From Clostridia bacterium (GTDB lineage Bacteria; Bacillota; Clostridia; Oscillospirales; Acutalibacteraceae), in NCBI GenBank assembly GCA_017507805.1, contig JAFWAC010000007.1, positions 1 to 37,548 on the forward strand: DNA of 37,548 bases, given 5' to 3'. Positions 10,223 to 25,368 of the stretch are shown piece by piece. Positions within the stretch are counted from its first letter, which is position 1, and each line of letters opens with the position of its first letter. Position numbers and translations under genes: made by a program. The notes beneath the pieces were generated by a model. The model saw only the letters and a list, made by a program, of their open reading frames with translations. It made no database searches and was not told the DNA's origin.

Positions 10223-11368
10223 TTAGTTTTCCGACACCGGAGCAATTTTATTCAGCAAAAGCTCAACAGCATCGTGATCTACCTCGCGCGGATTTGAGGC
10301 GGTGCACAAATCCTCTAATGCGGCAGAAATAATGTTTTCCTTTTCTCGTTCAAAATCCGCAGGTGATATTCCCGCCTCCCAGAGTGTGGCAGGGATACCC
10401 ATACGGCGAAGCATATAACGAACCTCATCAATAAGGCTTTCAACCGCAATTCGCACATTATCGTGCGGAAGGCTTAATTTTCGGGATATATCAGCATACC
10501 TTTGTGCCGCCTCGCAGGGCACTGCACCGAAGCAGGCGCGCAAATGAGCATTGAAGCGGATAACATGAGGCAAAAGTATCGCATTTGCTCTGCCGTGGGG
10601 AATGTGGAATTTTGCACCCAAAGCGTGGGCTATTCCGTGGTTAATTCCAAGACCAACCTCATTAAATGCCATGCCTGCAAGGCAGGAAGCACTGTGCATT
10701 TTTTCTCTTGCCACTATATCCGAGCCATCCTTAAAAGCATAAGGCAAATATTTAAAGGCAAGCAACAATGCTTTTTCTGCCAAAGCGTCAGAAGCATCGT
10801 TTGCATTAACCGAAACCAAAGCCTCAAACGCATGCGTTATAACATCCATACCGGTATCGGCAGTTATGGAAGGAGGTGCGGTTTCAACAAGCGCGGGGTC
10901 CAGAATAGCAAGGTCGGGTAACATTCCCTCGTCAACCAAGGGGTATTTGAGGTTATCGGTATCATCAGTAATAACCGCAAATTTTGTTACCTCCGAGCCG
11001 GTACCGCTTGTGGTGGGAATAGCAATAAGCTTAAGGTCACCCATGCCGGATTTCTCTGCCATAAATACTATTGCCTTTGCTGCATCTATGGGCGAACCTC
11101 CGCCCAAGGCGATAACAATTTCACCGCGGTTTTCGGTGATAAATTTTAGTCCCTTTGCAATAAGTGAGGTTGTGGGATCGGGAGTTACCTCGTCAAAAAC
11201 CGCAATGCTTTTATAGCCCTCCATTTTATCGGTAATCTTTTTTATCATACCGGAGGAAACCATAAATTTATCGGTAATTATAACGGCAGATTTTCCCTTG
11301 AACTCCTTAAGGGTATCAAGTGCGTTTTGATTAAAGCGTACCTCGGTACGGATTTTAAATCTATTCAT
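10223..11368 (-). CDS. pduQ: Iron-containing alcohol dehydrogenase, PduQ-like (1-propanol dehydrogenase)
   Basis: The protein has 381 residues. It carries the group III ADH nucleotide motif GGGSPIDAAK (89-98) and metal ligands Asp175, His179, His244 and His258, with the same spacing as FucO. In the pathway it would reduce propionaldehyde to 1-propanol and regenerate NAD+ for PduP. It is the last gene of the operon, 12 nt after pduL. No N-terminal encapsulation peptide is visible; PduQ elsewhere enters the shell by binding PduP (family knowledge). The alternative is lactaldehyde reductase activity, since FucO belongs to the same family. Confidence 0.88.
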   Translation of the reverse strand: MNRFKIRTEVRFNQNALDTLKEFKGKSAVIITDKFMVSSGMIKKITDKMEGYKSIAVFDEVTPDPTTSLIAKGLKFITENRGEIVIALGGGSPIDAAKAIVFMAEKSGMGDLKLIAIPTTSGTGSEVTKFAVITDDTDNLKYPLVDEGMLPDLAILDPALVETAPPSITADTGMDVITHAFEALVSVNANDASDALAEKALLLAFKYLPYAFKDGSDIVAREKMHSASCLAGMAFNEVGLGINHGIAHALGAKFHIPHGRANAILLPHVIRFNAHLRACFGAVPCEAAQRYADISRKLSLPHDNVRIAVESLIDEVRYMLRRMGIPATLWEAGISPADFEREKENIISAALEDLCTASNPREVDHDAVELLLNKIAPVSEN

Positions 11369-11380
11369 CTCATCAACCTG

Positions 11381-12034
11381 TTATTTCTGAATTTCGGCAA
11401 TAGAAACAGTATCGCCGTTTTTAAGGGCGGCGGCATTAGCATCATCAGTATCAAGATGAAGCTCCAATCGGAATTTATCACTCACCCTTACCTGAACATC
11501 ATAAAAACGGGTACGGCGCTCGCTTATGGTATCAAGTGTAACATAATCGCCGTCTTTAACACCGAATTTTTCACCGTCCTCAAGGCTCATATGAATGTGA
11601 CGGTTAGCGATTATACAGCCCTCCTTAAGTGTAACAACACCCTTAGGGCCTATAATTGTAATCGGTGCCGAGCCTTGTATCTTTCCGCTTTCACGAACAG
11701 GGGGCTTAACCTTTAACGCATAAGAATCAGTACGGGAAATTTCCACCTGAGACTCGCTTCTTTCGGGACCTAAAACCCTAACCTTTTCTATCGGCTTAAG
11801 TGACGGGCCTACTATTGTGAGCAATTCCTTGCAAGCAAACTGTCCCGGCTGTGAAAGGTCCTTTAAGGGAGTAAGCTGATAACCCTCACCAAAAAGAATG
11901 TCAACATGCTCACGGCTCAAATGAATGTGACGGTTGGAAATTCCTACCGGTATACCGTCTTCTGTTACCATTGTGCCGTTGCTTTCCAAAGCTCTTAAAA
12001 CCGCTTCTGCAACTGCTGAAATATTTATATCCAT
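11381..12034 (-). CDS. pduL: Phosphate propanoyltransferase PduL
   Basis: The protein has 217 residues. It converts propionyl-CoA plus phosphate to propionyl-phosphate and recycles CoA inside the compartment. The duplicated PduL signature is clear: SNRHIHLS (33-40), ANRHIHMS (143-150) and the metal-site segment ELHLDTDDAN (191-200). Residues 2-18 form an amphipathic helix (ISAVAEAVLRALES) typical of an encapsulation peptide, followed by a short linker. It sits between pduP and the iron ADH. No propionate/acetate kinase follows, so ATP formation must use a kinase encoded elsewhere. Confidence 0.95.
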   Translation of the reverse strand: MDINISAVAEAVLRALESNGTMVTEDGIPVGISNRHIHLSREHVDILFGEGYQLTPLKDLSQPGQFACKELLTIVGPSLKPIEKVRVLGPERSESQVEISRTDSYALKVKPPVRESGKIQGSAPITIIGPKGVVTLKEGCIIANRHIHMSLEDGEKFGVKDGDYVTLDTISERRTRFYDVQVRVSDKFRLELHLDTDDANAAALKNGDTVSIAEIQK

Positions 12035-12051: not shown

Positions 12052-13506
12052 TTAAATTATACGGAAGCTATCCGCCATAACACAGCGGCGCTTTCTTGTG
12101 AAGCTTCGTGCAGAGGTTATACCCTCACCTGTGGGGCCTGCAATCGTAAAGGTTGTGTGTCCCTCACCACCAAAGCCTATACCTGCATAGGAAGGAGCAT
12201 TTTTAACAAAAATGGTAGTCTCAACCGCCGCCGCAAAGCGAGAAAGATTGTCAATATTCTTAGAATGCATATGTGCAGTGTGGCGGTTGCCGTGCTCCGC
12301 TTTTACAGCGAGGTCAATTGCCTCGTCAATATCAGAAACACCAACAATTGGCAAAATCGGCATCATAAGCTCCTCTTGAACAAACAGGTGATTGAAATCG
12401 GTTTCACAAATTATGCAACGAACATCGTTTCCAACCTTAACACCTATCATATCAAGCAAGACTGCGGCATCTCTGCCCACGCATTTGCGGTTGATTGTTT
12501 TCTTTGTTTTGCCTGTCTTTTTATCGGTAACATCAACAAGCACTACCTGTGCCAGGGCATCTGCCTGTGCGGCAGAAATGAGATATGCACCGTTTTTGAG
12601 CATTTCGGATATAAGTCTATCCTTAATATTATTAAAAGCAAATACCTCTTTCTCGGCTATACAAGGGAGGTTATTATCAAAGGTACATCCGTCAATAATA
12701 TCCTTACCTGCCTTGGCAATATCGGCTGTGTCATCAACAATAACAGGGGGATTACCTGCGCCTGCGCCGATTGCCTTTTTACCCGATGAAAGCACCGAGC
12801 GCACCACTCCGGGGCCGCCTGTGCAAACAAGCAAACGGATAAGCGGATGTGTCTGCATTATCTTTGCGGAATCAAGTGTGGGCTTATCCATAGAGGTTAC
12901 CAAAACCTTGGGGCCGCCTGCCATAAGGCTTGCTCTGTTTACAAGGTCAACCGCATAGTTTGATACGCATATAGCACCGGGGTGCGGGTTAAAGACAACA
13001 CCGTTGCCTGCCGCTATCATACCCATACTGTTGCAGATAACAGTTTCGCTGGGGTTGGTACTCGGCGTGATTGCACCCACAACACCAAAGGGTGCCATTT
13101 CAACAAGGGTAAGACCGTTGTCACCGGTTTTAGCCTCGCTTACGATATCCTCTGTGCCGGGAGTTTTATCGGCAACAAGAAGGTGCTTAAGTCTTTTATG
13201 CTCGACCTTGCCCATTCCGGTTTCCTTAACACCCATCTCAGCCATTATGGGAGCTTCCTTTCGGGTAAGCTCGCGAATAGCGGTAATTATCTGCTCGCGC
13301 TTCTCAACGCTCATTGCTCTTACAGCCTTATATCCCTCATTAGCGGCGGCTATGGCATCATTCATATCCGAATAAATACCCACCAGCTTTCTGCCCTGAT
13401 ATTCGGTACTGCTGTATTCTGCTGATGGTGCGGCGGCAGTATTACCCAAAGCACCAACAACCTGTTTTACTATTTTTTCTATTTCTGCCCTACTGATTTC
13501 GGCCAT
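12052..13506 (-). CDS. pduP: CoA-acylating propionaldehyde dehydrogenase, PduP-like
   Basis: The protein has 484 residues. It oxidises propionaldehyde to propionyl-CoA with NAD+. The catalytic Cys282 lies in NNLPCIAEKEVF. TGGPGVVRSV and GAGNPPVIVDDT are typical of the EutE/PduP branch. The first 20 residues (MAEISRAEIEKIVKQVVGAL) form an amphipathic encapsulation helix, followed by an Ala/Ser linker up to about residue 35. The start at 13506 is set by GGAGGAG 7 nt upstream; this site lies inside the 3' end of the DeoR gene, whose stop is 1 nt away. A longer frame to 13530 has no such site. Confidence 0.95.
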   Translation of the reverse strand: MAEISRAEIEKIVKQVVGALGNTAAAPSAEYSSTEYQGRKLVGIYSDMNDAIAAANEGYKAVRAMSVEKREQIITAIRELTRKEAPIMAEMGVKETGMGKVEHKRLKHLLVADKTPGTEDIVSEAKTGDNGLTLVEMAPFGVVGAITPSTNPSETVICNSMGMIAAGNGVVFNPHPGAICVSNYAVDLVNRASLMAGGPKVLVTSMDKPTLDSAKIMQTHPLIRLLVCTGGPGVVRSVLSSGKKAIGAGAGNPPVIVDDTADIAKAGKDIIDGCTFDNNLPCIAEKEVFAFNNIKDRLISEMLKNGAYLISAAQADALAQVVLVDVTDKKTGKTKKTINRKCVGRDAAVLLDMIGVKVGNDVRCIICETDFNHLFVQEELMMPILPIVGVSDIDEAIDLAVKAEHGNRHTAHMHSKNIDNLSRFAAAVETTIFVKNAPSYAGIGFGGEGHTTFTIAGPTGEGITSARSFTRKRRCVMADSFRII

Positions 13507-13507
13507 C

Positions 13508-14284
13508 TCAAATCTCCTCCGAAGCATCAAATACTAATTCAATTCCGTCACGGGTAATGCGCTCCTGCCAACGGGTGTCAGGTGCATTATCAGTAACGAT
13601 AACATCAACCTCGTTTATATCGCAAACCTTAACAAATGAGGTTTTATCAAATTTAGAAGAATCCACCGCTAAAACCTTACGCTTTGCCGATGCAAAAAAG
13701 GCTTTTTTTATCTCACTGTCCCTCTCGTTAGAATCGGTAACACCCTTTTCACGGTCTAAGCCCTTGCAGGAGCAAATTGCAATATCCACATTATAGCCTG
13801 CAACCATACGCTCTGCCTGATAGCCCAAAAGGGAAAGTCCACCCTCCTTTAAAACACCGCCTGTAGATATAATCATCCAATCAGGCTTGTTACAAAGCTC
13901 TATCAAAATTTCGATTGAGTTTGTGATAAGGGTTATTTTTTTGCGGTCAAGAATATTTTTTATAACACACAGCGCCGTTGTGCTGGAATCCAGCATAATA
14001 CAGTCGCCGTCCTTTATCATATCGCTTATAAGTGCCGCTATTTTGCGTTTGCTTTCTACATTGGTTTGATTTCTTATATGGAAAGGAAGGTCAATATTAA
14101 AATTTTCATTTTTGACTGCGCCGCCGTAGGTTTTGCGTGCCAAACCGTCCTGCTCAAGTTTTTCAAGGTCGCGGCGGATGGTTTCCTCTGTGACCGAAAA
14201 TTCACGGCTGAGGTCACTCACAACAACCTTGCCTTCAACCGAAAGCTTGGAAAGAATAGCATTTCTGCGCTCGATAGCTAACAA
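13508..14284 (-). CDS. DeoR-family transcriptional regulator of the BMC locus
   Basis: The protein has 258 residues. The N-terminal DeoR helix-turn-helix spans residues of about 5-57 (ERRNAILSKL, VTEETIRRDLEKLEQDG). The C-terminal DeoRC sugar-phosphate sensor domain runs from about 75 to 235 (DGDCIMLDSSTTALCV, ITNSIEI, KRKVLAVDSSKFDK). The start is TTG, with AAGGGG 8 nt upstream. DeoR proteins usually release DNA on binding a phosphorylated sugar intermediate. Here a fuculose- or rhamnulose-phosphate-type inducer is plausible from the aldolase (inference). It is embedded in the operon between the PduT-like gene and pduP, so it would autoregulate. Operator-like repeats at 21085-21122 and 25399-25470 are candidate targets. 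Confidence 0.9.
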   Translation of the reverse strand: MLAIERRNAILSKLSVEGKVVVSDLSREFSVTEETIRRDLEKLEQDGLARKTYGGAVKNENFNIDLPFHIRNQTNVESKRKIAALISDMIKDGDCIMLDSSTTALCVIKNILDRKKITLITNSIEILIELCNKPDWMIISTGGVLKEGGLSLLGYQAERMVAGYNVDIAICSCKGLDREKGVTDSNERDSEIKKAFFASAKRKVLAVDSSKFDKTSFVKVCDINEVDVIVTDNAPDTRWQERITRDGIELVFDASEEI

Positions 14285-14307: not shown

Positions 14308-14856
14308 TTAAAGTATACTCTGCCAGAGCTTGGAATCGGGTCTCGGAATTACCGAACTGTCAAGGAACATACCCCTGTCGCTTGCCTCAGCTTCAGCACG
14401 CTCAATAGCGGCAGTAACTGCAGAAACACTGCCTGTAAGCAGTAAATAAGATTTTCCGCACATACCGCGAGCCAGACGAAGCTCCAAAAGGTCAACCAAT
14501 GCGGTTTTTGCCGCTGCATCTGCCGCAACAATGGCGGTTGCCGCAGAAAAGCTTTCCAAAATACCTAAAGCCTCCACACCTTCAGGCGGAGTAGCGCCGT
14601 AAATTGCGGGGAATATGGATTCATGTGGGTTGCCAAGTACAAAGCTGTCAATCACCTTTTGAGGCTCCTTTGCCTTTGCGGTATCAACCGAAGCCTTAAC
14701 AGCACTTAACTCACCGCTTATAATTACAATATATTTACCTGGGCATACGGTGGCGCTTTCGATAATATCTATTTCAGCAGTTTTAAGCATTGTATCTGCA
14801 CCGGTCATACCGGCAGATACTGTAACGAATTCCACCATACCTATTGCCTTGCTCAT
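14308..14856 (-). CDS. pduT: BMC-T shell protein, PduT-like, with Fe-S pore cysteine
   Basis: The protein has 182 residues and is a tandem of two BMC domains (about 1-90 and 93-182; AIGMVEFVT and ALGILESFS mark each start). Cys38 in ESATVCPGKY matches the pore cysteine that coordinates a [4Fe-4S] cluster at the centre of the Salmonella PduT trimer. It is predicted to form a pseudohexameric tile that lets electrons cross the shell. The PduS-like gene lies immediately upstream in transcription, separated only by the 278-bp element. PduS and PduT are known partners, so the pair suggests a redox conduit. Confidence 0.93.
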   Translation of the reverse strand: MSKAIGMVEFVTVSAGMTGADTMLKTAEIDIIESATVCPGKYIVIISGELSAVKASVDTAKAKEPQKVIDSFVLGNPHESIFPAIYGATPPEGVEALGILESFSAATAIVAADAAAKTALVDLLELRLARGMCGKSYLLLTGSVSAVTAAIERAEAEASDRGMFLDSSVIPRPDSKLWQSIL

Positions 14857-14878
14857 TACACAACTTCCCTTCTAAGCC

Positions 14879-15156
14879 TTAGTGCGACAGGAATTGAACC
14901 TGTCGCGGTTTCGCTCGCCGCCTTTTATATGCGGCTTTGCACTTATTTTTGCAAGGCGTTAGCCTTGCGGCAAATTCCCTGCTTCGCCGAATAAAAAATT
15001 CGGCGGCAGAAACTTTTTAACCTGCTAAACTGAAAATTTTTGTATAGGACGAAGCCGATAAAACGAAGGGATACTGTCGTATTTCAAGTTTTGAGGCAAA
15101 GTATTATCAAAAATTTTGTTTCGCAGACGTGACAGTTTCAGGTCCTGTCACACTAA
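14879..15156. mobile_element. 278-bp MITE-like element bounded by 13-bp inverted repeats
   Basis: The left end TTAGTGCGACAGG (14879-14891) and the reverse complement of the right end (15144-15156, TTAGTGTGACAGG) match at 12 of 13 bases. Each end also folds on itself: gcgacagg/cctgtcgc at 14884-14906 and gtgacag/ctgtcac at 15129-15151. Internal hairpins lie at 14951-14968 and 14979-15009. No ORF of note is inside. The right end supplies the TAG stop of the PduS-like gene (15153-15155). No target-site duplication is evident. It looks like a non-autonomous element or dispersed intergenic repeat; a second copy is not in this window. Confidence 0.65.
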
Positions 15157-16481
15157 CTTGCGGCAATAATAATATATTTTTCGGTTACTTCCCTAACAAC
15201 ACCGTTGATCGAGCTATGTATAGCCACGCTCAAAGCGCCCTCTTTAGGTGCGGCAATCATATCGCCAACCTTAACACTGTCACCCTTTTTAACGGTGGGC
15301 ACAGCAGGCGCACCGATATGCTGTGAAAGCAAAAGCTTTACTGTCTTCGGCTTATACTCTGCTTCATCAAGCAATGCAGGATGATTATACTTTGTAAGTC
15401 CAAGTCTTGCAGTTAAGCGGGATTTAAGAATGTATCTGCCCGAGCGCTCCTCCTTTACAGGTGCCGCCTCAACCTCGGGCACAGGAATACCGCCCTTTCT
15501 TAACTCGCCCTTTACAATTCCGATAAGTGTGCGGGGTGAAAGGTTCTGGAAGCAGGAATACATCTCACAAAGACCGCAGGCACTACAGAACATTGTGCCG
15601 AGATAGGGCTCCTTATCGCTTGTAACACCGCTTGAAGCCGAGCGCATAAAGCTATGCGGCTCGATAGGATGACCTAAAAGATTACGGGGGCAAAGGTCGG
15701 TACACATTCTGCATTGACAGCATGCCGACATTGCCCTCTTAAGAGAGATGCCGGGGTCTGCCTTGCGCTTGCGCACAATGTACTGATCCTGTGGCATAAC
15801 CAGAATTGCGTTGCTGGTTTTGGTTATAACATCGCTTTCGCTTACAATATTACCTGTCATCGGACCGCCATTAATAAGCGCATAGTCCGAAATTGTGGCA
15901 CCGCCTGCCAAGGACAGCACCTCACCGACAGTAATACCCAACGGTACACGAAGTGTTACAGGATTTTTAACCTCACCCGTAACCGTTATATATTTATGAG
16001 TAACACCGATACCATCACTTATTGCATTATAAGCATTGAGCATGGTTTCGACATTAAAAACAGTCACACCAACCGAAATCGGAAGCTTACCCGGAGGCAC
16101 TACCCGACCTGTGGTTTCATATATGGTAACAACCTCATCACCGGCAGGATAAACCTCCGGCAAAAGGCCGATAGTTATCGATTTAAAGCTTTCAAGCTGT
16201 GCCTTAACCGCCTCAACCGCCTTTTTATAGGACGGCTTAATGGCAATGATTACCTGCTTTGCTCCAACAGCCTGCCGCACTGCCTCAAGGGCGGTTAAAA
16301 TCTCCCTTGCGTAATGCTGCATAACCTGACGGTGGAGCTTTAAAAGCGGCTCACATTCAGCACAGTTGAGTATTAAAGTATCAGCACTTTCATTAAGCTT
16401 TGCATAGCATGGAAAGCCTGCACCGCCCGCACCTACAATACCTGCGGTCTGCAAAGCATTTTTTAACTCATTTATGTTCAT
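15153..16481 (-). CDS. pduS: PduS/RnfC-like flavo-iron-sulfur electron-transfer protein
   Basis: The protein has 442 residues. An N-terminal RnfC/Nqo1-like FMN/NADH-binding region carries GAGGAGFPCYAK (17-28). An SLBB domain follows at about 160-215. Two 4Fe-4S clusters are formed by Cys254/255, 257, 260, 264 and Cys299, 302, 305, 310. A C-terminal barrel-sandwich domain covers about 385-442. PduS of Salmonella is a cobalamin reductase that binds PduT. Here no B12 enzyme is encoded, so a role in moving electrons through the BMC-T pore is more likely (inference). It starts 4 nt after the BMC-P gene without a clear ribosome site, suggesting coupling. Its stop lies in the right inverted repeat of the downstream element. 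Confidence 0.92.
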   Translation of the reverse strand: MNINELKNALQTAGIVGAGGAGFPCYAKLNESADTLILNCAECEPLLKLHRQVMQHYAREILTALEAVRQAVGAKQVIIAIKPSYKKAVEAVKAQLESFKSITIGLLPEVYPAGDEVVTIYETTGRVVPPGKLPISVGVTVFNVETMLNAYNAISDGIGVTHKYITVTGEVKNPVTLRVPLGITVGEVLSLAGGATISDYALINGGPMTGNIVSESDVITKTSNAILVMPQDQYIVRKRKADPGISLKRAMSACCQCRMCTDLCPRNLLGHPIEPHSFMRSASSGVTSDKEPYLGTMFCSACGLCEMYSCFQNLSPRTLIGIVKGELRKGGIPVPEVEAAPVKEERSGRYILKSRLTARLGLTKYNHPALLDEAEYKPKTVKLLLSQHIGAPAVPTVKKGDSVKVGDMIAAPKEGALSVAIHSSINGVVREVTEKYIIIAAS

Positions 16482-16485: not shown

Positions 16486-16752
16486 TCAATCCATCAATCC
16501 AATCGAATTATCAACAATACCTACTATTGCCGCGTCAACGGGTGCATTGTCCATATCGCAACCAACCCTTGCGGCGCTGCCTGTGGCAACCAAAACAATT
16601 TCTCCTATACCTGCGCCCACATTATCAACAGCCACTATTCTGCCGTTTTCGGACATATTCTCGATAGGCTCAACTATCATAAACTTACTGCCTAGTAAGC
16701 GTTCGTTTTTGCGTGTAGCAACTACACTGCCAACTACCTTTCCGACTATCAT
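16486..16752 (-). CDS. eutN: BMC-P pentameric vertex protein (EutN/CcmL family)
   Basis: The protein has 88 residues with the EutN/CcmL fold: MIVGKVVGSVVATRKNERLLGSKF begins the OB-like barrel, and GEIVLVATGSAAR is the conserved glycine-rich stretch. Pentamers of this protein cap the twelve vertices of the icosahedral shell. It is the only BMC-P gene in the locus. It lies after the last BMC-H gene, separated by 93 nt that contain a stable hairpin, and directly before pduS. Confidence 0.95.
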   Translation of the reverse strand: MIVGKVVGSVVATRKNERLLGSKFMIVEPIENMSENGRIVAVDNVGAGIGEIVLVATGSAARVGCDMDNAPVDAAIVGIVDNSIGLMD

Positions 16753-16845: not shown

Positions 16846-17124
16846 TTACTTTAATGAGGGTAAAATCTTTTCAACATCTGCATGGGGTCTGGGGATTACA
16901 TGAACTGCAACCAATTCGCCCAGCTTGGATGCTGCTGCAGAACCTGACTCGGTTGCAGCCTTAACTGCGCCTACATCGCCGCGTACCATAACAGATACGA
17001 GTCCTGAACCGATTTTCTCGGTACCGATAAGCTCAACATTAGCAGCCTTTACCATTGCATCTGCTGCCTCAATTGCTGCAACAAGACCTCTGGTTTCTAC
17101 CATTCCAAGTGCTTCAAGTGCCAT
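16846..17124 (-). CDS. BMC-H hexameric shell protein (PduA/PduJ-like), copy 1
   Basis: The protein has 92 residues and a single BMC domain. The pore loop EKIGSG is the same as in PduA, which forms the propanediol-permeable pore in Salmonella. The sequence is nearly identical to the proteins of the genes at 17166 and 17883, differing mainly in the first four residues, NVE versus EVE, and the ESGSAAA segment. It forms the hexagonal facets of the shell. It is the last of five BMC-H genes in tandem. Confidence 0.95.
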
Positions 17125-17165
17125 TTTTAGTTCCTCCTGTTAAGATTTATTAATTAAATTATTAA

Positions 17166-17549
17166 TTAAAGCTTAGGTAAAATTTTCTCAACATCTGCGT
17201 GGGGTCTGGGGATTACATGAACTGCAACCAACTCGCCCAGCTTAGATGCTGCAGATGCGCCCGATTCGGTTGCAGCCTTAACTGCACCTACATCGCCGCG
17301 TACCATAACAGATACGAGTCCCGAGCCGATTTTCTCGGTTCCGATAAGCTCAACATTAGCAGCCTTTACCATTGCATCTGCTGCTTCAATAGCCGCTACG
17401 AGACCTCTGGTTTCTACCATTCCAAGTGCCTGAAAATTCATTTTCTTTTCCTCCTTTGAAAAATTTTCCTTAACAGCCGGTGTTGTCTCCGGCGGCTTTG
17501 TGGTTTTTGCAGGTGCTTTTTTGGAAGCACTGCTCTTTGCCTCTGCCAT
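17166..17549 (-). CDS. BMC-H shell protein with N-terminal Lys/Ala/Pro extension and internal start (copy 2)
   Basis: The long form has 127 residues from the ATG at 17549 (AAAGGTGG 8 nt upstream). About 36 residues of low-complexity Lys/Ala/Pro/Thr/Glu sequence ([20 protein letters not shown], then TTPAV...KEEKK) precede a standard PduA-like BMC-H domain with the pore loop EKIGSG. Inside the gene, an ATG at 17441 is preceded by a perfect AAGGAGG 8 nt away. Starting there gives a 91-residue BMC-H like the neighbouring copies. Both isoforms may therefore be made. The KEEKK of the extension is encoded by the internal ribosome site itself, which suggests that an ordinary shell gene gained an upstream in-frame extension. 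A GTG at 17561 overlaps the upstream ribosome site and is less likely. Confidence 0.85.
17439..17456 (-). promoter_or_regulatory. Internal ribosome binding site and ATG within the extended BMC-H gene
   Basis: AAGGAGG (17450-17456, minus strand) sits 8 nt before an in-frame ATG (17441-17439). It is stronger than the site of the full-length start. It would direct synthesis of the unextended shell protein. Confidence 0.7.
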
Positions 17550-17570: not shown

Positions 17571-17870
17571 TTATGCTTTTGCTTTAGCTTTAGCCATTCG
17601 TGAGGCGCTGAGCTTAACCATACGCTCGGTCTCACTGTGAGGACTTGCAATCACTGCCGATGCGGCAGGTTTGATTATCGAGCCGTTTACGGCCGCTTCA
17701 ACTGCGGCGCTTACTGCCGATATCTGACCTTCAACAATAATGGTTACAAGTCTTCCGCCAAGCTTTCTTTCCCAGGTCACAAAGCTAACCTCTGCCGCCT
17801 TGCACATAATATCAAGGCAATCCACCGCGGCGGTTACACTCTGAACCTCTATAAGTCCCAAAGACTTCAT
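17571..17870 (-). CDS. BMC-H shell protein, divergent paralog with basic tail
   Basis: The protein has 99 residues and a single BMC domain (MKSLGLIEVQSVTAAVDCLD, then GGRLVTIIVEGQISAV). The pore region reads KLGGR instead of KIGSG, so its pore chemistry differs from its neighbours. The C-terminus is an Ala/Lys tail (MAKAKAKA) that could face the lumen or bind cargo. It lies between copy 2 and copy 3 of the PduA-like proteins, so it belongs to the same shell. An AGAGGGGAT site precedes its ATG. Confidence 0.9.
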   Translation of the reverse strand: MKSLGLIEVQSVTAAVDCLDIMCKAAEVSFVTWERKLGGRLVTIIVEGQISAVSAAVEAAVNGSIIKPAASAVIASPHSETERMVKLSASRMAKAKAKA

Positions 17871-17882: not shown

Positions 17883-18158
17883 TTAAAGCTTAGGTAAAAT
17901 CTTTTCAACATCTGTATGGGGTCTGGGGATTACATGAACTGCAACCAATTCGCCCAGCTTAGATGCTGCGGATGCGCCCGACTCGGTTGCAGCCTTAACT
18001 GCACCTACATCGCCGCGAACCATAACAGATACGAGTCCTGAACCGATTTTCTCGGTACCGATAAGCTCAACCTCTGCCGCCTTTACCATTGCATCAGCAG
18101 CCTCGATTGCTGCCACAAGACCTCTTGTTTCTATCATTCCAAGTGCTTCGTATGCCAT
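17883..18158 (-). CDS. BMC-H hexameric shell protein (PduA/PduJ-like), copy 3
   Basis: The protein has 91 residues and a single BMC domain, with [13 protein letters not shown] at the start, pore loop EKIGSG and the C-terminal [11 protein letters not shown]. It is nearly identical to copies 1 and 2, including long stretches of identical DNA. It is a facet-forming hexamer. The divergent BMC-H gene follows after 12 nt. Confidence 0.95.
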
Positions 18159-18182: not shown

Positions 18183-18497
18183 TTATTTTTTATCAAAAGC
18201 ATTTAGCTTCAGCATTTTTTCTGTGCCGTCCTCGGCATTGGGAATTATGTGCTTACAAATTACTCCCGATACACGGTCTGCCGCCTCCTCAGCCGCTTCA
18301 ACCGCCGCCTCTACCGCCGCAACACTGCCGCGGAATTTTACCGCAACTATAAGCGGTACCTCAAGTCCATCGGGATTACCGGGCTTGTTTTTATCAAAGG
18401 TTTCAACCGTTACTGCCGCCGCTTTACAGCCTGCATCACAGGCAACAAAGGCAGCTACAAGACCGTAAACCTCTATTATACCGACTGCCTTACCCAT
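18183..18497 (-). CDS. BMC-H shell protein, long-loop variant
   Basis: The protein has 104 residues from the ATG at 18497 (AAAGGTG 6 nt upstream). An earlier GTG overlaps this site and is rejected. The BMC fold is recognisable (GKAVGIIEVYGLVAAFVACD), but the pore-loop region is lengthened (FDKNKPGNPDGLEVPL), so the hexamer pore should differ from the KIGSG type. It lies 11 nt after the zinc ADH gene. Similar single-domain variants occur in GRM loci; the transported metabolite is unknown. Confidence 0.87.
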   Translation of the reverse strand: MGKAVGIIEVYGLVAAFVACDAGCKAAAVTVETFDKNKPGNPDGLEVPLIVAVKFRGSVAAVEAAVEAAEEAADRVSGVICKHIIPNAEDGTEKMLKLNAFDKK

Positions 18498-18508
18498 TAG
18501 CATCACCT

Positions 18509-19699
18509 TTATTCATTGATGATGGCAATCTTAAGACCCTGCATTGAAAGGTTGGTCTTTAATGCCTCATTTATCTGCTCTAACGGGAAGCGGTGGGTAA
18601 TAAGCTTTTCAAGCGGTAAGCCTATTGCCTTAGCGCGCTTGAGGAAATCGAAGGTGGTTGCATAATCGCGAAGGGTGTATACCCAAGAACCAACGGTTGT
18701 TATCTCCTTAGCGCAAATATCAAAGTGGGGGTTGATTGTGGCATCGCCGCCATTAATAAAGAAGCCAAGCTCACAAAGACCGCCGCCGTTACGGATAAAC
18801 TTATAAATATTTGAGTGTGCCACGGGCGAGCCTGTGCATTGGAAGGCAAAGTCTGCGGCATAACCGCCGAAGGCTCCCTCAACAGCCGCTGTAAGCTCCT
18901 CTATACCCTTATAATTCTTGAAGTTTACAGAGCGCTCTGCACCCATTTCCTTTGCAAACTCAAGGCGCTTTTCCTCACCGTCAATAGCAACGATATTTTC
19001 AATACCCATCGTACGCAAAATTGCTATACACAAAAGACCGATAGGACCGCAGCCCTGAACGGCTACACGGCTGTTAAAGCGAAGTATGCCGGTGGTCTTT
19101 GCGCGCTCCACTGCGTGAATAAGCACAGCCGCAGGCTCAATGAGAATACGGGAATCAAGGTCAAGGTCGCTTACATTAAATATAGTTGAGCCGCCGCGAA
19201 CAACCATATAGTCGGCAAACCAACCGTTAAGATGAATATCGTCATCAGGCAAAAGGCCGAATACATCGGCACCGCCAACATTTTGCTTGTTAAGGTCAAA
19301 CATAGTAATGTCGGGGTTGTCCTTGAAAATCATACAGGTAACAACCTTATCACCTATATTTAAAGGCTTGCCGGCACTGTCCTTCTTAACATTTTTACCC
19401 ATTGCAACGACTTCGCCTGTACCCTCATGTCCCAACACAACAGGAATGAGACCAAAGGGGTCACGCTTAAATTCGTGAGCATCTGTACCGCAAACACCGC
19501 AGCCCTCAACCTTAACGAGAATATCATCGTCACCGAGAGGCGGAATGGGGTATTCCTTAATATCGAAATTTTCCAAAGAAGTAAGCATTGCTACGCGAGA
19601 AGTTGCAGGGACAGCTCCGCCCGACTTTTTAGCCGGTGCCGCACCCTGAATTTCACCGATAACCTGCTTTACAATTCTTTCAATGTCAGCAGAATTCAT
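18509..19699 (-). CDS. Zinc-dependent alcohol dehydrogenase (MDR family) with N-terminal encapsulation peptide
   Basis: The protein has 396 residues. Residues 1-19 (MNSADIERIVKQVIGEIQG) are an amphipathic encapsulation helix closely matching that of PduP, followed by an Ala/Lys/Gly linker to about residue 34. The MDR core follows: catalytic zinc site Cys70 (GCGVCGTD), His91-Glu92 (GHEGTGEV) and Glu188, and Rossmann motif GCGPIG (216-221). The four-cysteine structural zinc lobe of classical ADHs is absent. In context it probably reduces lactaldehyde to 1,2-propanediol or propionaldehyde to propanol (inference). It lies between the GlcG-like gene and the shell genes. Confidence 0.88.
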   Translation of the reverse strand: MNSADIERIVKQVIGEIQGAAPAKKSGGAVPATSRVAMLTSLENFDIKEYPIPPLGDDDILVKVEGCGVCGTDAHEFKRDPFGLIPVVLGHEGTGEVVAMGKNVKKDSAGKPLNIGDKVVTCMIFKDNPDITMFDLNKQNVGGADVFGLLPDDDIHLNGWFADYMVVRGGSTIFNVSDLDLDSRILIEPAAVLIHAVERAKTTGILRFNSRVAVQGCGPIGLLCIAILRTMGIENIVAIDGEEKRLEFAKEMGAERSVNFKNYKGIEELTAAVEGAFGGYAADFAFQCTGSPVAHSNIYKFIRNGGGLCELGFFINGGDATINPHFDICAKEITTVGSWVYTLRDYATTFDFLKRAKAIGLPLEKLITHRFPLEQINEALKTNLSMQGLKIAIINE

Positions 19700-19721: not shown

Positions 19722-20192
19722 TCACAGATTTTCGCTCAGCCACCGCGCGCCGTACTCAGCAAGAGCAGTATCCTGCTCCTCACTGCCGCCGCTTACACCC
19801 AAGCCGCCTATTATATCGCCGTTTTTACCGTACAGCGGTACACCGCCGCCGAAAATAACGATTTTGCCGGAATTGGTAAACTGAATTCCGTAAAGCGAGC
19901 CGCCGGGCGCGGCTAAATTTTTAAGAGCAGAGGTAGGCATTTTAAGCGCCGTCACAGTGTATGCCTTGTTAAACGCAATATCATAGCTTGCTATATACGA
20001 ATCTCTCATACATTGCACCGAAACGGGATTTGTGTGCTTATCCGCAACAGCCGCTACCGCGCGGACACCCATTTCCTTTGCCTTGGCAAACACCGCCGCT
20101 ATAAGCTCGTTTGCCTTTATAAGGCTGATGCTGTTTTCGGGCAGAGCCTCTATTACCTCTTTAACCAAATCCGTAATTTGTTTTTCGGTCAA
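19722..20192 (-). CDS. GlcG/HbpS (PduO C-terminal domain) family protein with encapsulation peptide
   Basis: The protein has 156 residues if it starts at the TTG at 20192, which has AAGGGAG 8 nt upstream. A GTG at 20201 overlaps that site. The N-terminal helix TEKQITDLVKEVIEAL resembles the other encapsulation peptides here. The body is a DUF336/GlcG domain (SVQCMRDSYIASYDIAFNKAYTV, then GGVPLYGKNGDIIGGLGVSG). This domain forms the C-terminal half of PduO and can bind haem in HbpS. The adenosyltransferase half of PduO is missing, in line with a B12-free pathway. Its exact role in GRM loci is not established. Confidence 0.85.
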   Translation of the reverse strand: MTEKQITDLVKEVIEALPENSISLIKANELIAAVFAKAKEMGVRAVAAVADKHTNPVSVQCMRDSYIASYDIAFNKAYTVTALKMPTSALKNLAAPGGSLYGIQFTNSGKIVIFGGGVPLYGKNGDIIGGLGVSGGSEEQDTALAEYGARWLSENL

Positions 20193-20225
20193 ATCAAGCA
20201 CTCCCTTTCTTAAAAGGTACGGCTA

Positions 20226-21026
20226 TTACTTGCCGAGCTGTTCCATAACCTTTTTAGTAATCTGAGCTACTAAATCATCGCTTGCAGCAGATGCAGATGA
20301 AGTTTTATTGACACCGCAGTTATGGCAGCTTAATTTACCGCTTTTAGCATTGGGGCAAAGGTCAGCTGGATGCTTACCCTTCATACCGAACTGTCTGCGG
20401 ATTTCATACAAACGCTCAACCTGTCTCTCATCAAGCTCCTTAGGACCGCCAAGCTGTCTTGAAATAAACAGAAGCTGTGCATAGAACTCAAGAGATTCCA
20501 TCTTATGATAAGCATTAAGCAGACTGTCGGAATAAGCCAATGCACCGTGGTTTTCAAGAAGAACAGCATCAAAGCACTGCAAATACTTTTCAACAGCATC
20601 CGGAATTTCATCGGTGGAGGGTGTGCCGTACTCAGCAATCGGAACGCAACCGAGAGCGATTACAGCCTCAGGCATAATGGGCTGTGTAAGGGGAACACCT
20701 GCGATTGCAAAACCGGTAGCATACATAGGATGAGCATGAACTACCGAATTAACATCGGGACGGTTCTTATAAACACGCATATGCATCTTAATCTCCGATG
20801 AAGGACGGAAGCCGGGGTTAGCCTGAATAACCTTACCCTCTGCATCAACCTTACAAATGTATTCGGGTGTCATAAAGCCCTTACTAACACCTGTGGGGGT
20901 GCAAAGGAATTCGCGGTCGTTAAGCTTTACCGAGATGTTACCGTCATTAGAAGCAACCATTCCCTTATCGTAAATGCGCTTACCAATGTCGCAAATCTGT
21001 TTTTTGATTTCATACTCTGATACCAT
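20226..21026 (-). CDS. Class II aldolase (L-fuculose-phosphate aldolase type) with C-terminal encapsulation peptide
   Basis: The protein has 266 residues. It would cleave fuculose-1-phosphate (or rhamnulose-1-phosphate) to DHAP and lactaldehyde. Residues 1-215 form the class II aldolase fold: catalytic Glu78 and zinc ligands His97, His99 (HAHPMYATG) and His160 (LENHGALA). After it comes an extra segment with Cys224, Cys234 and Cys237 (CHNC), a Ser/Ala linker, and a C-terminal amphipathic helix (DDLVAQITKKVMEQLGK) matching encapsulation peptides. A cargo-tagged aldolase is the hallmark of GRM5 (fucose/rhamnose) compartments. It heads the second transcription unit; AAGGAG precedes its ATG and a promoter lies at 21074-21102. 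Confidence 0.92.
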   Translation of the reverse strand: MVSEYEIKKQICDIGKRIYDKGMVASNDGNISVKLNDREFLCTPTGVSKGFMTPEYICKVDAEGKVIQANPGFRPSSEIKMHMRVYKNRPDVNSVVHAHPMYATGFAIAGVPLTQPIMPEAVIALGCVPIAEYGTPSTDEIPDAVEKYLQCFDAVLLENHGALAYSDSLLNAYHKMESLEFYAQLLFISRQLGGPKELDERQVERLYEIRRQFGMKGKHPADLCPNAKSGKLSCHNCGVNKTSSASAASDDLVAQITKKVMEQLGK

Positions 21027-21189: not shown

Positions 21190-21657
21190 CTACATATCGA
21201 AAATGCGGGTTTTATAATAGCGTTTAGTGTCAAATTCCGATAAAAAGTGCTTTAATTCCTCTATACCTTCACCCGTTACTGCGCTTACCTTGAATATCCT
21301 TTTACAGCCGGCAAGCTCCAACCAACGCACCGCCCTGTCAGCATTGGCATTTTTACGGTCAATCCCCGTAACTATACCTATAACCGGTCGGTTTGCCATT
21401 GAGGTTATATTAGGGCTATAAAGCGAATAGGGTTCATCGGCAGAAAGCAAAAAACCCACTATATCACTTTCATAGGCATAGACCGCAAGCGCGCCCCCGA
21501 AATTACGGCTTTCAACATATTCACCGGGGGTATCAATAAGAAATTTTCCCCTTTCAACACTTTGCGTTTTGGAATAATGTATTCCCTCGCCGTTAAGCGC
21601 TTGGGTCAATGTGGTTTTACCGCACCCCGAGCGACCGATAAGCATTACCTTATTCAT
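21190..21657 (-). CDS. eutP: EutP/PduV-like P-loop GTPase
   Basis: The protein has 155 residues from the ATG at 21657, which overlaps the stop of the preceding shell gene as TGATG (stop-restart coupling). A start 21 nt further up, inside the shell gene, is possible. The Walker A motif GRSGCGKT (8-15) is followed by IDTPGEYVE (G3-type) and VTGIDRKNANADRA (G4 region). PduV/EutP are small GTPase-like proteins in microcompartment operons, linked to compartment positioning; their mechanism is unresolved. It is the last gene of the dehydratase unit, with a 163-nt gap carrying the aldolase promoter behind it. Confidence 0.9.
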   Translation of the reverse strand: MNKVMLIGRSGCGKTTLTQALNGEGIHYSKTQSVERGKFLIDTPGEYVESRNFGGALAVYAYESDIVGFLLSADEPYSLYSPNITSMANRPVIGIVTGIDRKNANADRAVRWLELAGCKRIFKVSAVTGEGIEELKHFLSEFDTKRYYKTRIFDM

Positions 21658-22037
21658 CAGGTTTTTGTTATCGGGCATACGGTAAAGCCCAAGGTTTTTT
21701 CTGTGTAGGCAGTAACCGCCGAAACCGCCTCGCTCACCTGCGAAACACTGCCTGTAACTATAAGTGTGCCGCTGAAGCGGTCAACAAAGCCGAGCTGTGC
21801 GCCCGAAGCCTTGGTAGCAATATCGCCCGCGATAATTGCCGTTTCAGCAGGGCTTAAGGTTATAATACCGATTGCGGAGGTTTTATAGTCCCCTGCCGGG
21901 TCAAGTCCAAGCTTAGTGTAAAGCACAGGATCGGGGTTTGCAATAATGTGCGCAAGGGTTATCTGCTTACCGGGTACAAGCTCCTGAATAATACGGGCTT
22001 TACCCTCGTTTTTGAGTACATCAAAAATTGTATCCAA
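21657..22037 (-). CDS. pduU: Circularly permuted BMC-H shell protein, PduU/EutS-like
   Basis: The protein has 126 residues. The N-terminal strand segment RIIQELVPGKQITLAHIIANP is the hallmark of PduU/EutS, which build a small beta-barrel over the hexamer pore. The permuted BMC domain follows (SAIGIITLSPAETAIIAGD, then GTLIVTGSVSQVSEAV). The start codon is TTG; its AGGAGG site lies within the last codons of the activase gene. The protein is a shell tile with a plugged pore, made with the dehydratase and its activase rather than with the main shell cluster. Confidence 0.92.
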   Translation of the reverse strand: MDTIFDVLKNEGKARIIQELVPGKQITLAHIIANPDPVLYTKLGLDPAGDYKTSAIGIITLSPAETAIIAGDIATKASGAQLGFVDRFSGTLIVTGSVSQVSEAVSAVTAYTEKTLGFTVCPITKT

Positions 22038-22039: not shown

Positions 22040-22828
22040 TTATCCTCCTATCTTGGCTCTGAGACCAAATTTCTTTGCTGTTTCAAGCAACAGCTCCATT
22101 TTGCTGTCCTCGGGCGGTGTGATATTCTTAAGGGTATAATCTCTGCCCAAGCCCTTATACTTATCAAAACCTAATCTGTGATAAGGCAGGAGATTTATTT
22201 CACCGCCGGGCATAATCTCGGAAACAAACCGCGATATATCGGATATTTCCTCAACTGTATCATTAAAGGTAGGAATTACCGGCACACGGATAACAAGGTG
22301 ACGGGCTTCCCGACTTAATATTTTAGCATTGTCAAGAATGAGTTTATTGTCTTTACCGGTAAATTCCTTATGCTTTTGTGGGTTTACATGCTTTATATCC
22401 ATCAGGTAATGGTCCAGATGCGGTAAAAGCATACGAATTGTTTCTATGGGTGCGCAGGCTGTGGATTCGATTGCCGTGTTAAAGCCAAAATCGTGCGCGG
22501 CCCTTAGCAGTGCCGCCGCAAATTCCGGTTGACAAAGACATTCTCCGCCCGAGAGTGTGAGACCGCCGCCTGAAAGCCCATAATAAACACGGTCCTTTGC
22601 GACCTCGTCCATAACCTCTTTAACGGTTACATCTCTGCCGATGGTTTTTATTTTTCCTGCCGTTTCCATCTGTTCAATTTTGTAATTTTGAGATTCGGGA
22701 TTACAGCACCAACGGCACCGCAATACGCATCCCTTTAAAAACACAATGGTACGAACACCGGGACCGTCATGCACGGAAAATTTTTGTATATCGAAAATTC
22801 TGCCTGCAGTATTCATATAATCCTGCAT
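22040..22828 (-). CDS. Glycyl radical enzyme activase (radical SAM), short form
   Basis: The protein has 262 residues. It makes the glycyl radical on the adjacent dehydratase using SAM and a [4Fe-4S] cluster held by Cys34, Cys38 and Cys41 (GCVLRCRWCCNP). The activase signature HDGPGVRTIVFLKGC precedes it, and the SAM motif SGGGLTLSGGE lies near residue 90. Activases of diol/glycerol and choline enzymes usually carry a ferredoxin-like insert with CxxC clusters after the first motif. Here the stretch between residues 42 and about 95 has no such cysteines, more like the pyruvate formate-lyase activase. It starts 11 nt after the dehydratase gene with AAGGTG. Confidence 0.94.
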   Translation of the reverse strand: MQDYMNTAGRIFDIQKFSVHDGPGVRTIVFLKGCVLRCRWCCNPESQNYKIEQMETAGKIKTIGRDVTVKEVMDEVAKDRVYYGLSGGGLTLSGGECLCQPEFAAALLRAAHDFGFNTAIESTACAPIETIRMLLPHLDHYLMDIKHVNPQKHKEFTGKDNKLILDNAKILSREARHLVIRVPVIPTFNDTVEEISDISRFVSEIMPGGEINLLPYHRLGFDKYKGLGRDYTLKNITPPEDSKMELLLETAKKFGLRAKIGG

Positions 22829-22839
22829 TGCTTAACACC

Positions 22840-25368
22840 TTAAAATCCGCCCTGCTCGGTGCGGTTGATAATATCGTCCTGCAAGGAGCGCGAAAGGGTT
22901 GTGAACAGAGCACTGTAGCCTGCAACACGCACTACAAGCGAACGGTATTTTTCAGGATATTTCTGCGCCTCCAAAAGGGTTTCGCGGCTAACAACATTAA
23001 ACTGCATGTGCATACCCTTTTGAGCGAAATATCCGCGAACGAGTGCCGCAAAGCCCTCAAGTCCGCTCCTGCCTTTAAGCGCGCTCGGATGGAATTTCAT
23101 ATTAAACAGTGTACCGTTTGAAGCGATGAAATGATCCAATTTTGAAACCGAATTACAGGACGCGGTCGGGCCCTTCACATCTCTGCCTGCCGCCGGAGAA
23201 ACACCGTCAGCCACAGGTGTGCCTGCAAGTCTGCCGTCAGGCGTAGCGCCTGTCTGAGCGCCCAAAGGCACGTTTGCCGAAACAGGATAAAGTCCTGCAT
23301 GATATTTACCGCCGCGCGGATTTGTATATCTCTCAAGCGGTCTTGTATATGTATAAGCCACATCCCTTGCGAACATATCAACCTCGGCAATATCATTACC
23401 AAATTTAGGAAGCGCGTCAATATCCTCACGCAGTTTTTGGTAAAATGCCTTTTTATCGGGTGAGGTCTCATTTGCCTTTACCTTGGAATAAATCTCTGCG
23501 ATTTCCTGCGGAGTAACCTCTCTGCCCTTTGCGCTCAGCTCCTTAACTATTGTGGCGGTAAGCTGTTCGCTTATCAAATCCGACATAGGCTCACCGTAGT
23601 TATTTCTAAGGGCATCTGCAAACTCGCAAAGAGTGTATTTCCTCTGCTCATAAACTAAGGTGCGTATCGCACAGAGCGAGTCAGCCATATTCGCAATACC
23701 AAAGCCCTGCGGACCGGTAAAGTTATATACCGCGCCGCCCTCCTGAACAGATTTACCTCTGCCGATGCAATCCTCAATCATAGATGAAAGGAAGGGCAAG
23801 GGACATCTTTCAGCGTGAGCATAGTCTATACTGTTATCTGCGTTTACAAGCAGTTCTATCATATAATTCATCTGAGCCTTATAGGCATCATAGAACTTAT
23901 CAAAGGTATCAAACTCTGGTAATGCTCCTGTTTTGGGGCCAATCTGCACGCCGTTGTCAACACCGTTACTGAAAACAAGCTCCAACGGGCGGCACATATT
24001 AAAGAATGCGGCATCGTGCCAACCGTCCGTCTTGCCCGACACCTGCGGTTCAACACATCCGATAATATTATAGTTACGCGCGTCAGCAAGGGTAAGTCCA
24101 CGGCTGACAAGCGCAGGGATAATTACCTCATCGTTATAGTACGCAGGCAAGCCTATGCCCAAACGGGTAAGCTCTGCGGCACGAATTAAAAACTCGTGCG
24201 GAGTGCCGTTCCATATTCTTACCGAAAGTGACGGCTGCGGCAGCATAACATGCATTGAAGCGCCGATACACATAAAGGAAAGGTCATTAGTGACATCAAT
24301 TCCTTCCTCATTCTGACCGCCCGCGATGAGATTTTGGAAAACACCGTATCCTGCAAAGCCTTCTGCCGAAGCGGCATCACGCACCTTGGTAAGGTCATTG
24401 AGCTTAACCCATATACAGTCAATAAGCTCCTGAGCAAATTCACGGGTAATCTTTCCGCTTTCAATATCACGCTTATAATAGGGATACATATATTGGTCAA
24501 ATCTTCCGGGTGAAATTGAATGTCCGCTTGATTCGGTCTGCAAAAGCATCTGAACAAACCAGAAGGATTGGCAAGCCTCATAAAAGGAGGAAGCGCCTCT
24601 GCGCGGAACATTGGCACAGTTGTTTGCGATAAGCGCCAATTCCATACGGCGGTTGGGATCAGTTTCTTGCTTTGCCATATCCAAAGCCAAAAGAGCATAT
24701 CTCTCGGCATATTCGCAAGCCGCATTAAGCGATTTTATAACCGCTTTCAGGAAGCTGCTTCGGCGGGCATAATCACTGTCTCCCTCGTGACAGCTTTCAA
24801 GTGCAGACTGCGCCTTTTTGATAATCCCCTCAAAGCCGATGCTTAAAACTTCACCGTAATCAACAGTAACATGTCCGACACCGTTATAGAAATAGTTTCC
24901 GGTTGTGAAAATGTTATGCTCCATAGCAAGCTTGGCGTTTTCGCTCATATACTCGGTTGCAAGCTCACTTGTGGTTTTACCCTTCCAATATTTATAAGCC
25001 TCTGTAAGCTTTGCCTTTGTTTCGTCAGAAATATAAAAAGGGTCTGCCGAGCGTGTTTCAACCGTATCGAATTCCTGCTCCAGCCATTCAAATGAAAATT
25101 CAGGAAAGGTCTGACAGCTTCTCGGACGCACCGTCGCACTGCCGACAATCAATTCCAAGGGACGAATGGTTATGGGAATATTTTTAAGTATATGTTCAAA
25201 AGCCTCTGCACGGCGTGTAATAACAGGCTTGCCCTCGCTTGCGCGATAGCTTTCTGTAATAAGAACCGCACGGTCCGCCTCTATCTGAGGCTTTTGTTCA
25301 AACAAATGATCAATAAGCTTTTGTATTCGAGGGCTCTTTGCCACCTCTTGTGTGTAAAAATTAGCCAT
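22840..25368 (-). CDS. B12-independent glycyl radical diol dehydratase (1,2-propanediol/glycerol type)
   Basis: The protein has 842 residues. It dehydrates 1,2-propanediol to propionaldehyde by radical chemistry. The thiyl residue Cys438 and Glu440 lie in IIGCVEPQ, and Asp452 lies 14 residues after the Cys, as in the glycerol/diol dehydratases. His166 (NGVGHVTVD) and His283-Ser284 (SGHSISPG) match the substrate-binding positions. The C-terminal radical loop VVRVAGYSALF holds Gly817. These positions agree, from memory, with the Roseburia inulinivorans propanediol dehydratase. No N-terminal encapsulation helix is visible. The aldolase and PduP/PduL partners favour 1,2-propanediol over glycerol or choline. 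AAGGAGG precedes the ATG. The enzyme is oxygen sensitive by family. Confidence 0.95.
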   Translation of the reverse strand: MANFYTQEVAKSPRIQKLIDHLFEQKPQIEADRAVLITESYRASEGKPVITRRAEAFEHILKNIPITIRPLELIVGSATVRPRSCQTFPEFSFEWLEQEFDTVETRSADPFYISDETKAKLTEAYKYWKGKTTSELATEYMSENAKLAMEHNIFTTGNYFYNGVGHVTVDYGEVLSIGFEGIIKKAQSALESCHEGDSDYARRSSFLKAVIKSLNAACEYAERYALLALDMAKQETDPNRRMELALIANNCANVPRRGASSFYEACQSFWFVQMLLQTESSGHSISPGRFDQYMYPYYKRDIESGKITREFAQELIDCIWVKLNDLTKVRDAASAEGFAGYGVFQNLIAGGQNEEGIDVTNDLSFMCIGASMHVMLPQPSLSVRIWNGTPHEFLIRAAELTRLGIGLPAYYNDEVIIPALVSRGLTLADARNYNIIGCVEPQVSGKTDGWHDAAFFNMCRPLELVFSNGVDNGVQIGPKTGALPEFDTFDKFYDAYKAQMNYMIELLVNADNSIDYAHAERCPLPFLSSMIEDCIGRGKSVQEGGAVYNFTGPQGFGIANMADSLCAIRTLVYEQRKYTLCEFADALRNNYGEPMSDLISEQLTATIVKELSAKGREVTPQEIAEIYSKVKANETSPDKKAFYQKLREDIDALPKFGNDIAEVDMFARDVAYTYTRPLERYTNPRGGKYHAGLYPVSANVPLGAQTGATPDGRLAGTPVADGVSPAAGRDVKGPTASCNSVSKLDHFIASNGTLFNMKFHPSALKGRSGLEGFAALVRGYFAQKGMHMQFNVVSRETLLEAQKYPEKYRSLVVRVAGYSALFTTLSRSLQDDIINRTEQGGF

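Follow-up and report, generated by a model that had tools for sequence, protein, structure and literature searches.

How might a microcompartment shell in which no PduB is seen obtain a tailed subunit beside its plain hexamers? The question is raised by a 37,548-nucleotide contig of a Clostridia bacterium (JAFWAC010000007.1; the whole 37.5 kb stretch is called the window below), part of a draft genome of 2.34 Mb that is 87.6% complete. Positions 10223-25368 hold a bacterial microcompartment (BMC) locus, very probably a complete glycyl radical microcompartment of type 5 (GRM5) for fucose and rhamnose. Within it, the PduA-like shell gene 17166-17549 is likely translated from two starts of the same mRNA into a long-tailed subunit and a plain hexamer subunit. 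For comparison, we scanned genome contigs for the aldolase of the locus, which gave 487 encoding stretches, and kept the best 80 (L009-L088). With the window this makes 81 loci; near-copies occur among them (e.g. L044/L050 and L057/L078), so that locus counts are not independent.

A PduA-like shell gene with two candidate starts

The gene 17166..17549 lies on the minus strand, like the rest of the locus, and encodes a PduA-like protein with a single BMC domain. From the long start at 17549 it would give a protein of 127 residues with a 36-residue tail rich in Ala, Lys, Thr and Pro, and from the short start at 17441 one of 91 residues (17166-17441). A ribosome-binding site (RBS), AAGGAGG at 17456-17450, stands 8 nt before this internal ATG. 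The gene directly follows a shell gene in the PduK position (17571..17870, 99 residues, PF00936 66.8 bits; the equivalent of Cphy_1181 by position), and ahead of the BMC domain its reading frame stays open. We examined this arrangement in 164 PduA-like copies, 55 just behind a PduK-position match (>50% identity) and 109 elsewhere. The frame was open for at least 24 codons in 46 of the 55 copies behind PduK, with an in-frame ATG in 44 (all but L073 and L086), compared with 12 of the 109 others. Eight of these 12 are themselves tailed, with no PduK-position match upstream (L020, L039, L041, L047, L056, L057, L062, and L078); the other four (L040, L049, L053, and L071) have no ATG, and the frame of L049 runs through Ns. 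One locus, L068, has an open frame that continues through the gene next to it and was for that reason left out of most counts, which leaves 43 genes, window included.

The tails also differ from one another in a way that suggests translation. Between 45 related pairs (60-97% identical, taken from 87 prefiltered ones and compared without their last 8 codons), the proportion of synonymous differences (pS) was 0.47 and that of nonsynonymous differences (pN) 0.23, with 340, 236, and 481 differences at the three codon positions, and pS exceeded pN in 11 of 13 disjoint, hand-chosen pairs; since the pairs are related, these figures are indications, not tests. The tails consist of 20% Ala, 19% Lys, and 19% Thr with 5.9% bulky hydrophobic residues, and their net charge is above zero in 37 of 43.

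One alternative is that the open frame of the tail arose by chance or as a pseudo-leader, the short protein alone being made. Several observations weigh on its side and against two products. The RBS match before the upstream ATG reaches just 4 nt in 23 of 44 genes and is below 4 nt in a further 10, so that it is at most 4 nt in 33 of 44. Nine of the 55 copies behind PduK have no open tail (L028, L036, L058, L065, L069, L074, L077, L085, and L087), and pN lies above pS in 2 of the 13 disjoint pairs. The internal site also resembles the RBS of plain PduA-like copies, 96 of 97 of which have a match of 5 nt or more; by this comparison, an ordinary start seems to have been retained within a longer gene. 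Against a silent tail stand the excess of open frames behind PduK (46/55 versus 12/109, with 8 of the 12 themselves tailed) and a pS above pN, and we consider this alternative unlikely. In the nine loci that lack the tail, the RBS match before the start of the BMC domain persists.

The converse alternative is that only the long protein is made and that the internal AAGGAGG arises simply from the conservation of a KEE/KEV peptide; the Lys-Glu peptide is indeed kept in 10 aligned rows. The nucleotides are conserved beyond what this peptide demands. The match before the internal ATG spans 5 nt or more in all 43 genes and 6 nt or more in 38 of them, and 32 have AAGGAGG complete; among 4549 other in-frame Met codons in cargo genes, the corresponding numbers are 83, 13, and 3. 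At the site, AAG GAG encodes every one of 38 Lys-Glu pairs, whereas it is used for 170 of 960 such pairs in cargo genes and for none of the 8 in other parts of the tails. When the last 8 codons were recoded synonymously 500 times, a site of at least 6 nt arose in a mean of 10.7 and a maximum of 17 of the 43 genes, versus the 38 observed. In 36 of 44 genes, 8 nt separate the RBS from the internal ATG. A long protein on its own is thus very unlikely.

We therefore return to the two-protein reading as the likely one: the upstream start would give the long-tailed subunit and the internal start the plain hexamer subunit, both from one mRNA. Stop readthrough from 17571-17870 into the next gene, a candidate that arose as the frames agree in the window, was rejected; two stops (TAA and TGA) intervene, and the frames disagree in many relatives. 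An AlphaFold model of the long form, built on a 10-row alignment, was poor (mean predicted local distance difference test score 54, tail below 50, BMC fold failed) and was set aside. We found no description of a dual start in the GRM5 PduA-like gene in the open-licence PubMed Central literature. If confirmed, the arrangement would build a set proportion of tailed to plain subunits into GRM5 shells and make it directly testable how PduB-less shells hold their cargo or position themselves.

Comparison with PduB and possible roles of the tail

The closest parallel is Salmonella PduB/PduB', described as overlapping genes with two in-frame starts and a 37-residue tail; this tail is reported to contain an amphipathic helix by which it attaches to the core, and to join core and shell. 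The Salmonella starts give a long and a short protein, and those of 17166-17549 would do likewise. PduB is a tandem-domain BMC-T protein, whereas the GRM5 gene encodes a single-domain BMC-H protein with a low-complexity Ala/Lys/Thr tail. With one BMC domain and this composition, 17166-17549 has neither the BMC-T architecture nor, by composition, the core-binding amphipathic helix of PduB, so that we claim likeness for expression alone, not for function. We saw no PduB in the window, where the PduB model scores 31 of 310 bits at most, and PduB is also absent from the table in Petit 2013. It has been suggested in a paper on GRM2 that encapsulation may work in another way in loci that have no BMC-T; the window differs from such loci in having the BMC-T protein PduT. 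Extensions of BMC-H proteins are reported to occur, most often at the C-terminus (Sutter 2021). In the cultured species Clostridium phytofermentans, Cphy_1182 matches PduA just over residues 73-161 (Petit 2013, Table 1). A match that starts at residue 73 leads one to expect an N-terminal extension there too, and the tail probably exists in this species.

For tails in further loci, we inspected 20 additional stretches from the same class, picked mostly for long open frames and hence giving no frequency. Twelve carry a tail that starts with Met-Ala and is mostly Lys-rich, together with the internal site (L162, L164-L170, L172, L173, L175, and L176); L165 and L172 are the same contigs as L020 and L039, judging from their equal length and identical tails. 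L161 has a basic tail, and a Met start is absent from the frame shown. The open frames of L157, L158, and L171 differ in composition, and L163 and L174 have none. The last two, L159 and L160, have no aldolase or zinc alcohol dehydrogenase match, and their PduA-like tail carries GYKRRGRPRKSD before the internal RBS, a segment we take to be AT-hook-like. These two are of a different microcompartment locus type, with PduP, PduL, EutN, PduS, and PduT matches and, by eye, acetate-kinase-like and fructose-bisphosphate-aldolase-like genes. The tail of L164 opens, by eye, with a cargo-tag-like segment, VDIKEITKQVEQDI, before the internal RBS; tails elsewhere are of low complexity.

The tag-like tail of L164 and the AT-hook-like tail of L159/L160 give hints, by eye, for cargo linking and nucleoid tethering alike. 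Tentatively, PduB-less GRM5 shells might use the dual-start PduA-type protein in two roles: the strong internal start would supply the bulk hexamer and the weaker upstream start a less abundant subunit whose disordered tail would be basic and histone-like. Such a tail could link the shell to cargo as that of PduB does, or tether or space the organelles, for example on the nucleoid; we consider this reading less likely than not.

The glycyl radical enzyme is of the propanediol type by homology

Region 10223-25368 is a single minus-strand run of 19 genes, 11 non-shell and 8 shell. From first to last they encode the glycyl radical enzyme (GRE), its activase, an EutS-like protein, EutP, a class II aldolase, an HbpS/GlcG-like protein, a zinc alcohol dehydrogenase, five BMC-H proteins, EutN, PduS, PduT, a DeoR regulator, PduP, PduL, and an iron-type alcohol dehydrogenase. 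A preliminary description of this DNA had proposed a complete GRM5-like locus here, and all the components that it named are in place on that strand; it had counted seventeen genes, while its own component list adds up to the 19 found. Every gene matches at least one Pfam family over the gathering score (for example, PFL-like 825 bits, PTAC 256, and EutN 104), so the locus is not a product of chance.

By homology, 22840..25368 is a 1,2-propanediol dehydratase (842 residues; PF02901 and PF01228) with its own activase. Its alignment with the diol dehydratase of Roseburia inulinivorans (PDB 5i2a) begins at residue 1 and runs the full length (1274 bits over 840 residues, 65.5% or 550/840 identical); the protein scores 1035 bits with the glycerol dehydratase 1r8w (60.3%, 462/766) and 1019 bits with 9rco, which is named just 'glycyl radical protein'. 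Choline lyase structures reach 471-566 bits, and the CutC model, which stands for the choline type (GRM1/GRM2), scores 575 bits against a cut-off of 1050. By score, the enzyme hence does not place with the choline lyases, the placement that the preliminary description had named as telling against its proposal, and His166, Cys438, Glu440, Asp452, and Gly817 each stand where it had put them. In a tree of 63 GRE rows that includes no choline lyases, the window falls into a supported set of eight with L009, L010, L017-L019, L024, and L031. The protein has no N-terminal extension and carries an insertion at about 593-650, where the 1r8w alignment breaks (592/651); an insertion of ~60 residues is a published feature of GRM5 dehydratases (Ferlez 2019). 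Occurrence of the GRE is patchy in the genus (7 of 24 same-genus genomes searched, E up to 1e-100).

The activase, a radical SAM enzyme of 262 residues (22040..22828), is of the short type. Its residues 58-254 align to positions 95-292 of TIGR02494; with the alignment starting at 95, about 37 positions are missing on the N-terminal side. PF04055 and PF13353 are its only Pfam matches, and the ferredoxin-like insertion (PF00037) is absent. According to Ferlez 2019, only GRM5 activases lack this insertion.

Sugar input and proposed pathway

From the gene content, homology, residues, and gene order described here, we infer the pathway in the source organism and its encapsulation. Cytosolic isomerases and kinases would convert L-rhamnose or L-fucose to a ketose 1-phosphate. 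The class II aldolase (20226..21026, PF00596), which carries a C-terminal tag-like segment by eye, would cleave this inside the shell to dihydroxyacetone phosphate and L-lactaldehyde; its fuculose/rhamnulose phosphate specificity is a prediction. The zinc alcohol dehydrogenase (18509..19699; PF00107 and PF08240) would reduce lactaldehyde to 1,2-propanediol, which the activated GRE would dehydrate to propionaldehyde. In the literature the GRM5 zinc enzyme is labelled lactaldehyde reductase (LR; Ferlez 2019) or propanol dehydrogenase (Petit 2013). The PduP-like CoA-acylating aldehyde dehydrogenase (12052..13530; NF011927 664 bits over a cut-off of 403, closest solved relative 4c3s) and the phosphate propanoyltransferase PduL (11381..12034; PF06130, NF011652 264 bits over a cut-off of 209) would then form propionyl phosphate, from which AckA would yield ATP. 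An alcohol dehydrogenase would form propanol and recycle NADH, with the iron-type enzyme at 10223..11368 (PF25137 and PF00465) encoded last in the locus. PduS (15153..16481; PF01512, PF13375, PF10531, and PF13534), a flavin/iron-sulfur oxidoreductase, and the BMC-T protein PduT (14308..14856; two PF00936 stretches, Cys38 in CPGKY, TIGR02526 119.5 bits under a cut-off of 250.3) could transfer electrons across the shell. By eye, PduP, PduL, the zinc alcohol dehydrogenase, and the HbpS-like protein have tag-like N-terminal segments, where the preliminary description had named a tag for the aldolase alone.

The genome encodes an L-rhamnose isomerase (625.8 bits, NCBIfam equivalog cut-off 572), an L-fucose isomerase (1034.5 bits, cut-off 775), a probable rhamnulokinase (484.7 bits, under the cut-off of 527.95), and one acetate kinase (AckA), all on contigs other than that of the locus. 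This set fits an input of fucose or rhamnose, in line with the deoxysugar phosphate that the preliminary description had named. In C. phytofermentans, the sugar genes likewise lie apart from the BMC operon, and fucose induces the loci of C. phytofermentans and R. inulinivorans, with rhamnose also inducing the former (Petit 2013). Two points weigh against this reading: no fuculokinase above cut-off was found in the genome, where two of four FGGY kinases were typed and two (L093 and L096) left untyped, and the draft is 87.6% complete.

The aldolase might instead act on another ketose 1-phosphate, such as a pentulose 1-phosphate, with acetaldehyde or other products. None of its listed NCBIfam matches reaches the cut-off (3-oxo-tetronate 4-phosphate decarboxylase scores highest, with 139 of 250 bits), and four FGGY sugar kinases score over the Pfam cut-off in the genome. 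The closest solved relatives of the aldolase are nevertheless L-fuculose phosphate aldolases, if remote ones (98 bits), the GRE is of the propanediol type, and RhaA and FucI are present, which makes another substrate highly improbable. That the locus is of the GRM3/GRM4 type, using preformed 1,2-propanediol with the aldolase as a bystander, is a reading to which we give next to no weight: its GRE class is common to GRM3 and GRM4 (Ferlez 2019), but aldolase and zinc alcohol dehydrogenase lie within the operon, 58 of 81 loci (that of the window counted) combine the two with EutN and PduS while the remaining 23 are incomplete or short, the activase is without the insertion in the manner described there for GRM5 only, and the genome encodes isomerases for both sugars.

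The GRE with its insertion, the short activase, aldolase, zinc alcohol dehydrogenase, PduS, and PduT agree with published features of GRM5, and the locus very probably encodes a complete fucose/rhamnose microcompartment. As to GrpU, whose absence is a further GRM5 feature, no GrpU-named model was among the Pfam and NCBIfam matches, and whether those libraries include one was left unchecked. The locus widens the reach of a known gut pathway from mucin and plant deoxysugars to propionate and propanol.

Gene order and history of pduP

This is an ordinary GRM5 locus, of a type already known together with many relatives among uncultured Clostridia; as the preliminary description had it, the class is not new. 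The closest known loci are those of C. phytofermentans (Cphy_1174-1187) and R. inulinivorans. With these the window shares, in the same overall order, GRE, activase, the PduU/EutS-like protein, aldolase, zinc alcohol dehydrogenase, the BMC-H set, EutN, PduS, PduT, and DeoR, and also PduP and PduL (Petit 2013, Table 1). It differs from C. phytofermentans in having pduP and pduL behind deoR, whereas there pduP lies between the aldolase and zinc alcohol dehydrogenase genes and pduL before the EutN gene, and in a terminal iron-type alcohol dehydrogenase and more PduA-like copies. It has genes for EutP and HbpS; C. phytofermentans lacks pduV- and pduO-like genes, and R. inulinivorans has both.

The relatives are named as Clostridia, Clostridiales or Eubacteriales, Oscillospiraceae, Ruminococcaceae, Lachnospiraceae, Firmicutes, and two Candidatus genera, many from animal gut samples. 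For 48 of the 81 loci we could tell where pduP sits. It lies behind deoR in 26 (window included), between hbpS and the zinc alcohol dehydrogenase gene, the order of Petit 2013, in 17, and in a third order in 5. In 10 more loci, 6 of which end within 1.6 kb, pduP is not in the available stretch, and 23 are short or partial. The suggestion that combination and order might be new is thus weakly supported: the order does differ from that of C. phytofermentans, yet 25 other loci have pduP in the same position, and a new locus type based on gene order was rejected.

On the GRE tree (63 rows, quick method), loci with the order of the window do not form one clade; 16 unclassed loci are included there, which inflates the count of order changes. 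Their PduPs do form one clade (25 of 47 rows; support 97/93 and 98% of 200 bootstrap trees, in a tree without outgroup). In the same unrooted comparison, PduPs of the Petit order lie across a long branch (0.88), and those of the third order form a clade on the window's side. That PduPs group by gene order and GREs do not suggests that the aldehyde dehydrogenase gene pduP may have been replaced.

We know of no glycyl radical dehydratase in the Planctomycetes and Verrucomicrobia (PVM) microcompartment. As described, it has a class II aldolase for fucose and rhamnose in common with the window and a completely different gene order.

Other features of the locus and its surroundings

The EutS/PduU-like BMC-H protein (21657..22037; PF00936) scores 114.7 bits with NF012012, under the cut-off of 123, and the EutP/PduV-like GTPase (21190..21678; PF10662) 142.9 bits with TIGR02528, over 138.35. 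The HbpS/GlcG-like protein (19722..20201; PF03928 117.9 bits) is presumably of the PduO C-domain type. The other shell proteins are a 107-residue BMC-H protein, possibly equivalent to Cphy_1180 by position (18183..18506; PF00936 70 bits), two PduA/EutM-like BMC-H proteins (17883..18158, PF00936 102 bits; 16846..17124, 102.7 bits), and the EutN/CcmL pentamer vertex protein (16486..16752; PF03319 103.8 bits). The DeoR-family regulator lies at 13508..14284 (PF00455 and PF08220). All 8 PF00936 matches of the draft genome lie inside the locus. No tRNA genes were found in the window, nor Rfam families at gathering score.

A sodium:neurotransmitter-type symporter gene (25518-26876) adjoins the locus upstream on the same strand; it was rejected as a member, having no match in the available stretches of the 80 relative loci. 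Between pduS and pduT, outside the pathway, lies an insertion of 296 nt (14857..15152, with no strand assigned) that folds far better than shuffled sequences (z -4.96). Its two ends nearly match (TGTGACAGGA / TCCTGTCGCAC), and it resembles a small hairpin element. It was dropped as a repeat, with one copy in its own assembly. By alignment estimates, the gap between these genes is 5-64 nt in 52 of the 54 loci that have both (window included) and 260 nt in L074. The three PduA-like copies in 16846-18177 share 86-88% DNA identity over 295 nt and are a candidate for gene conversion.

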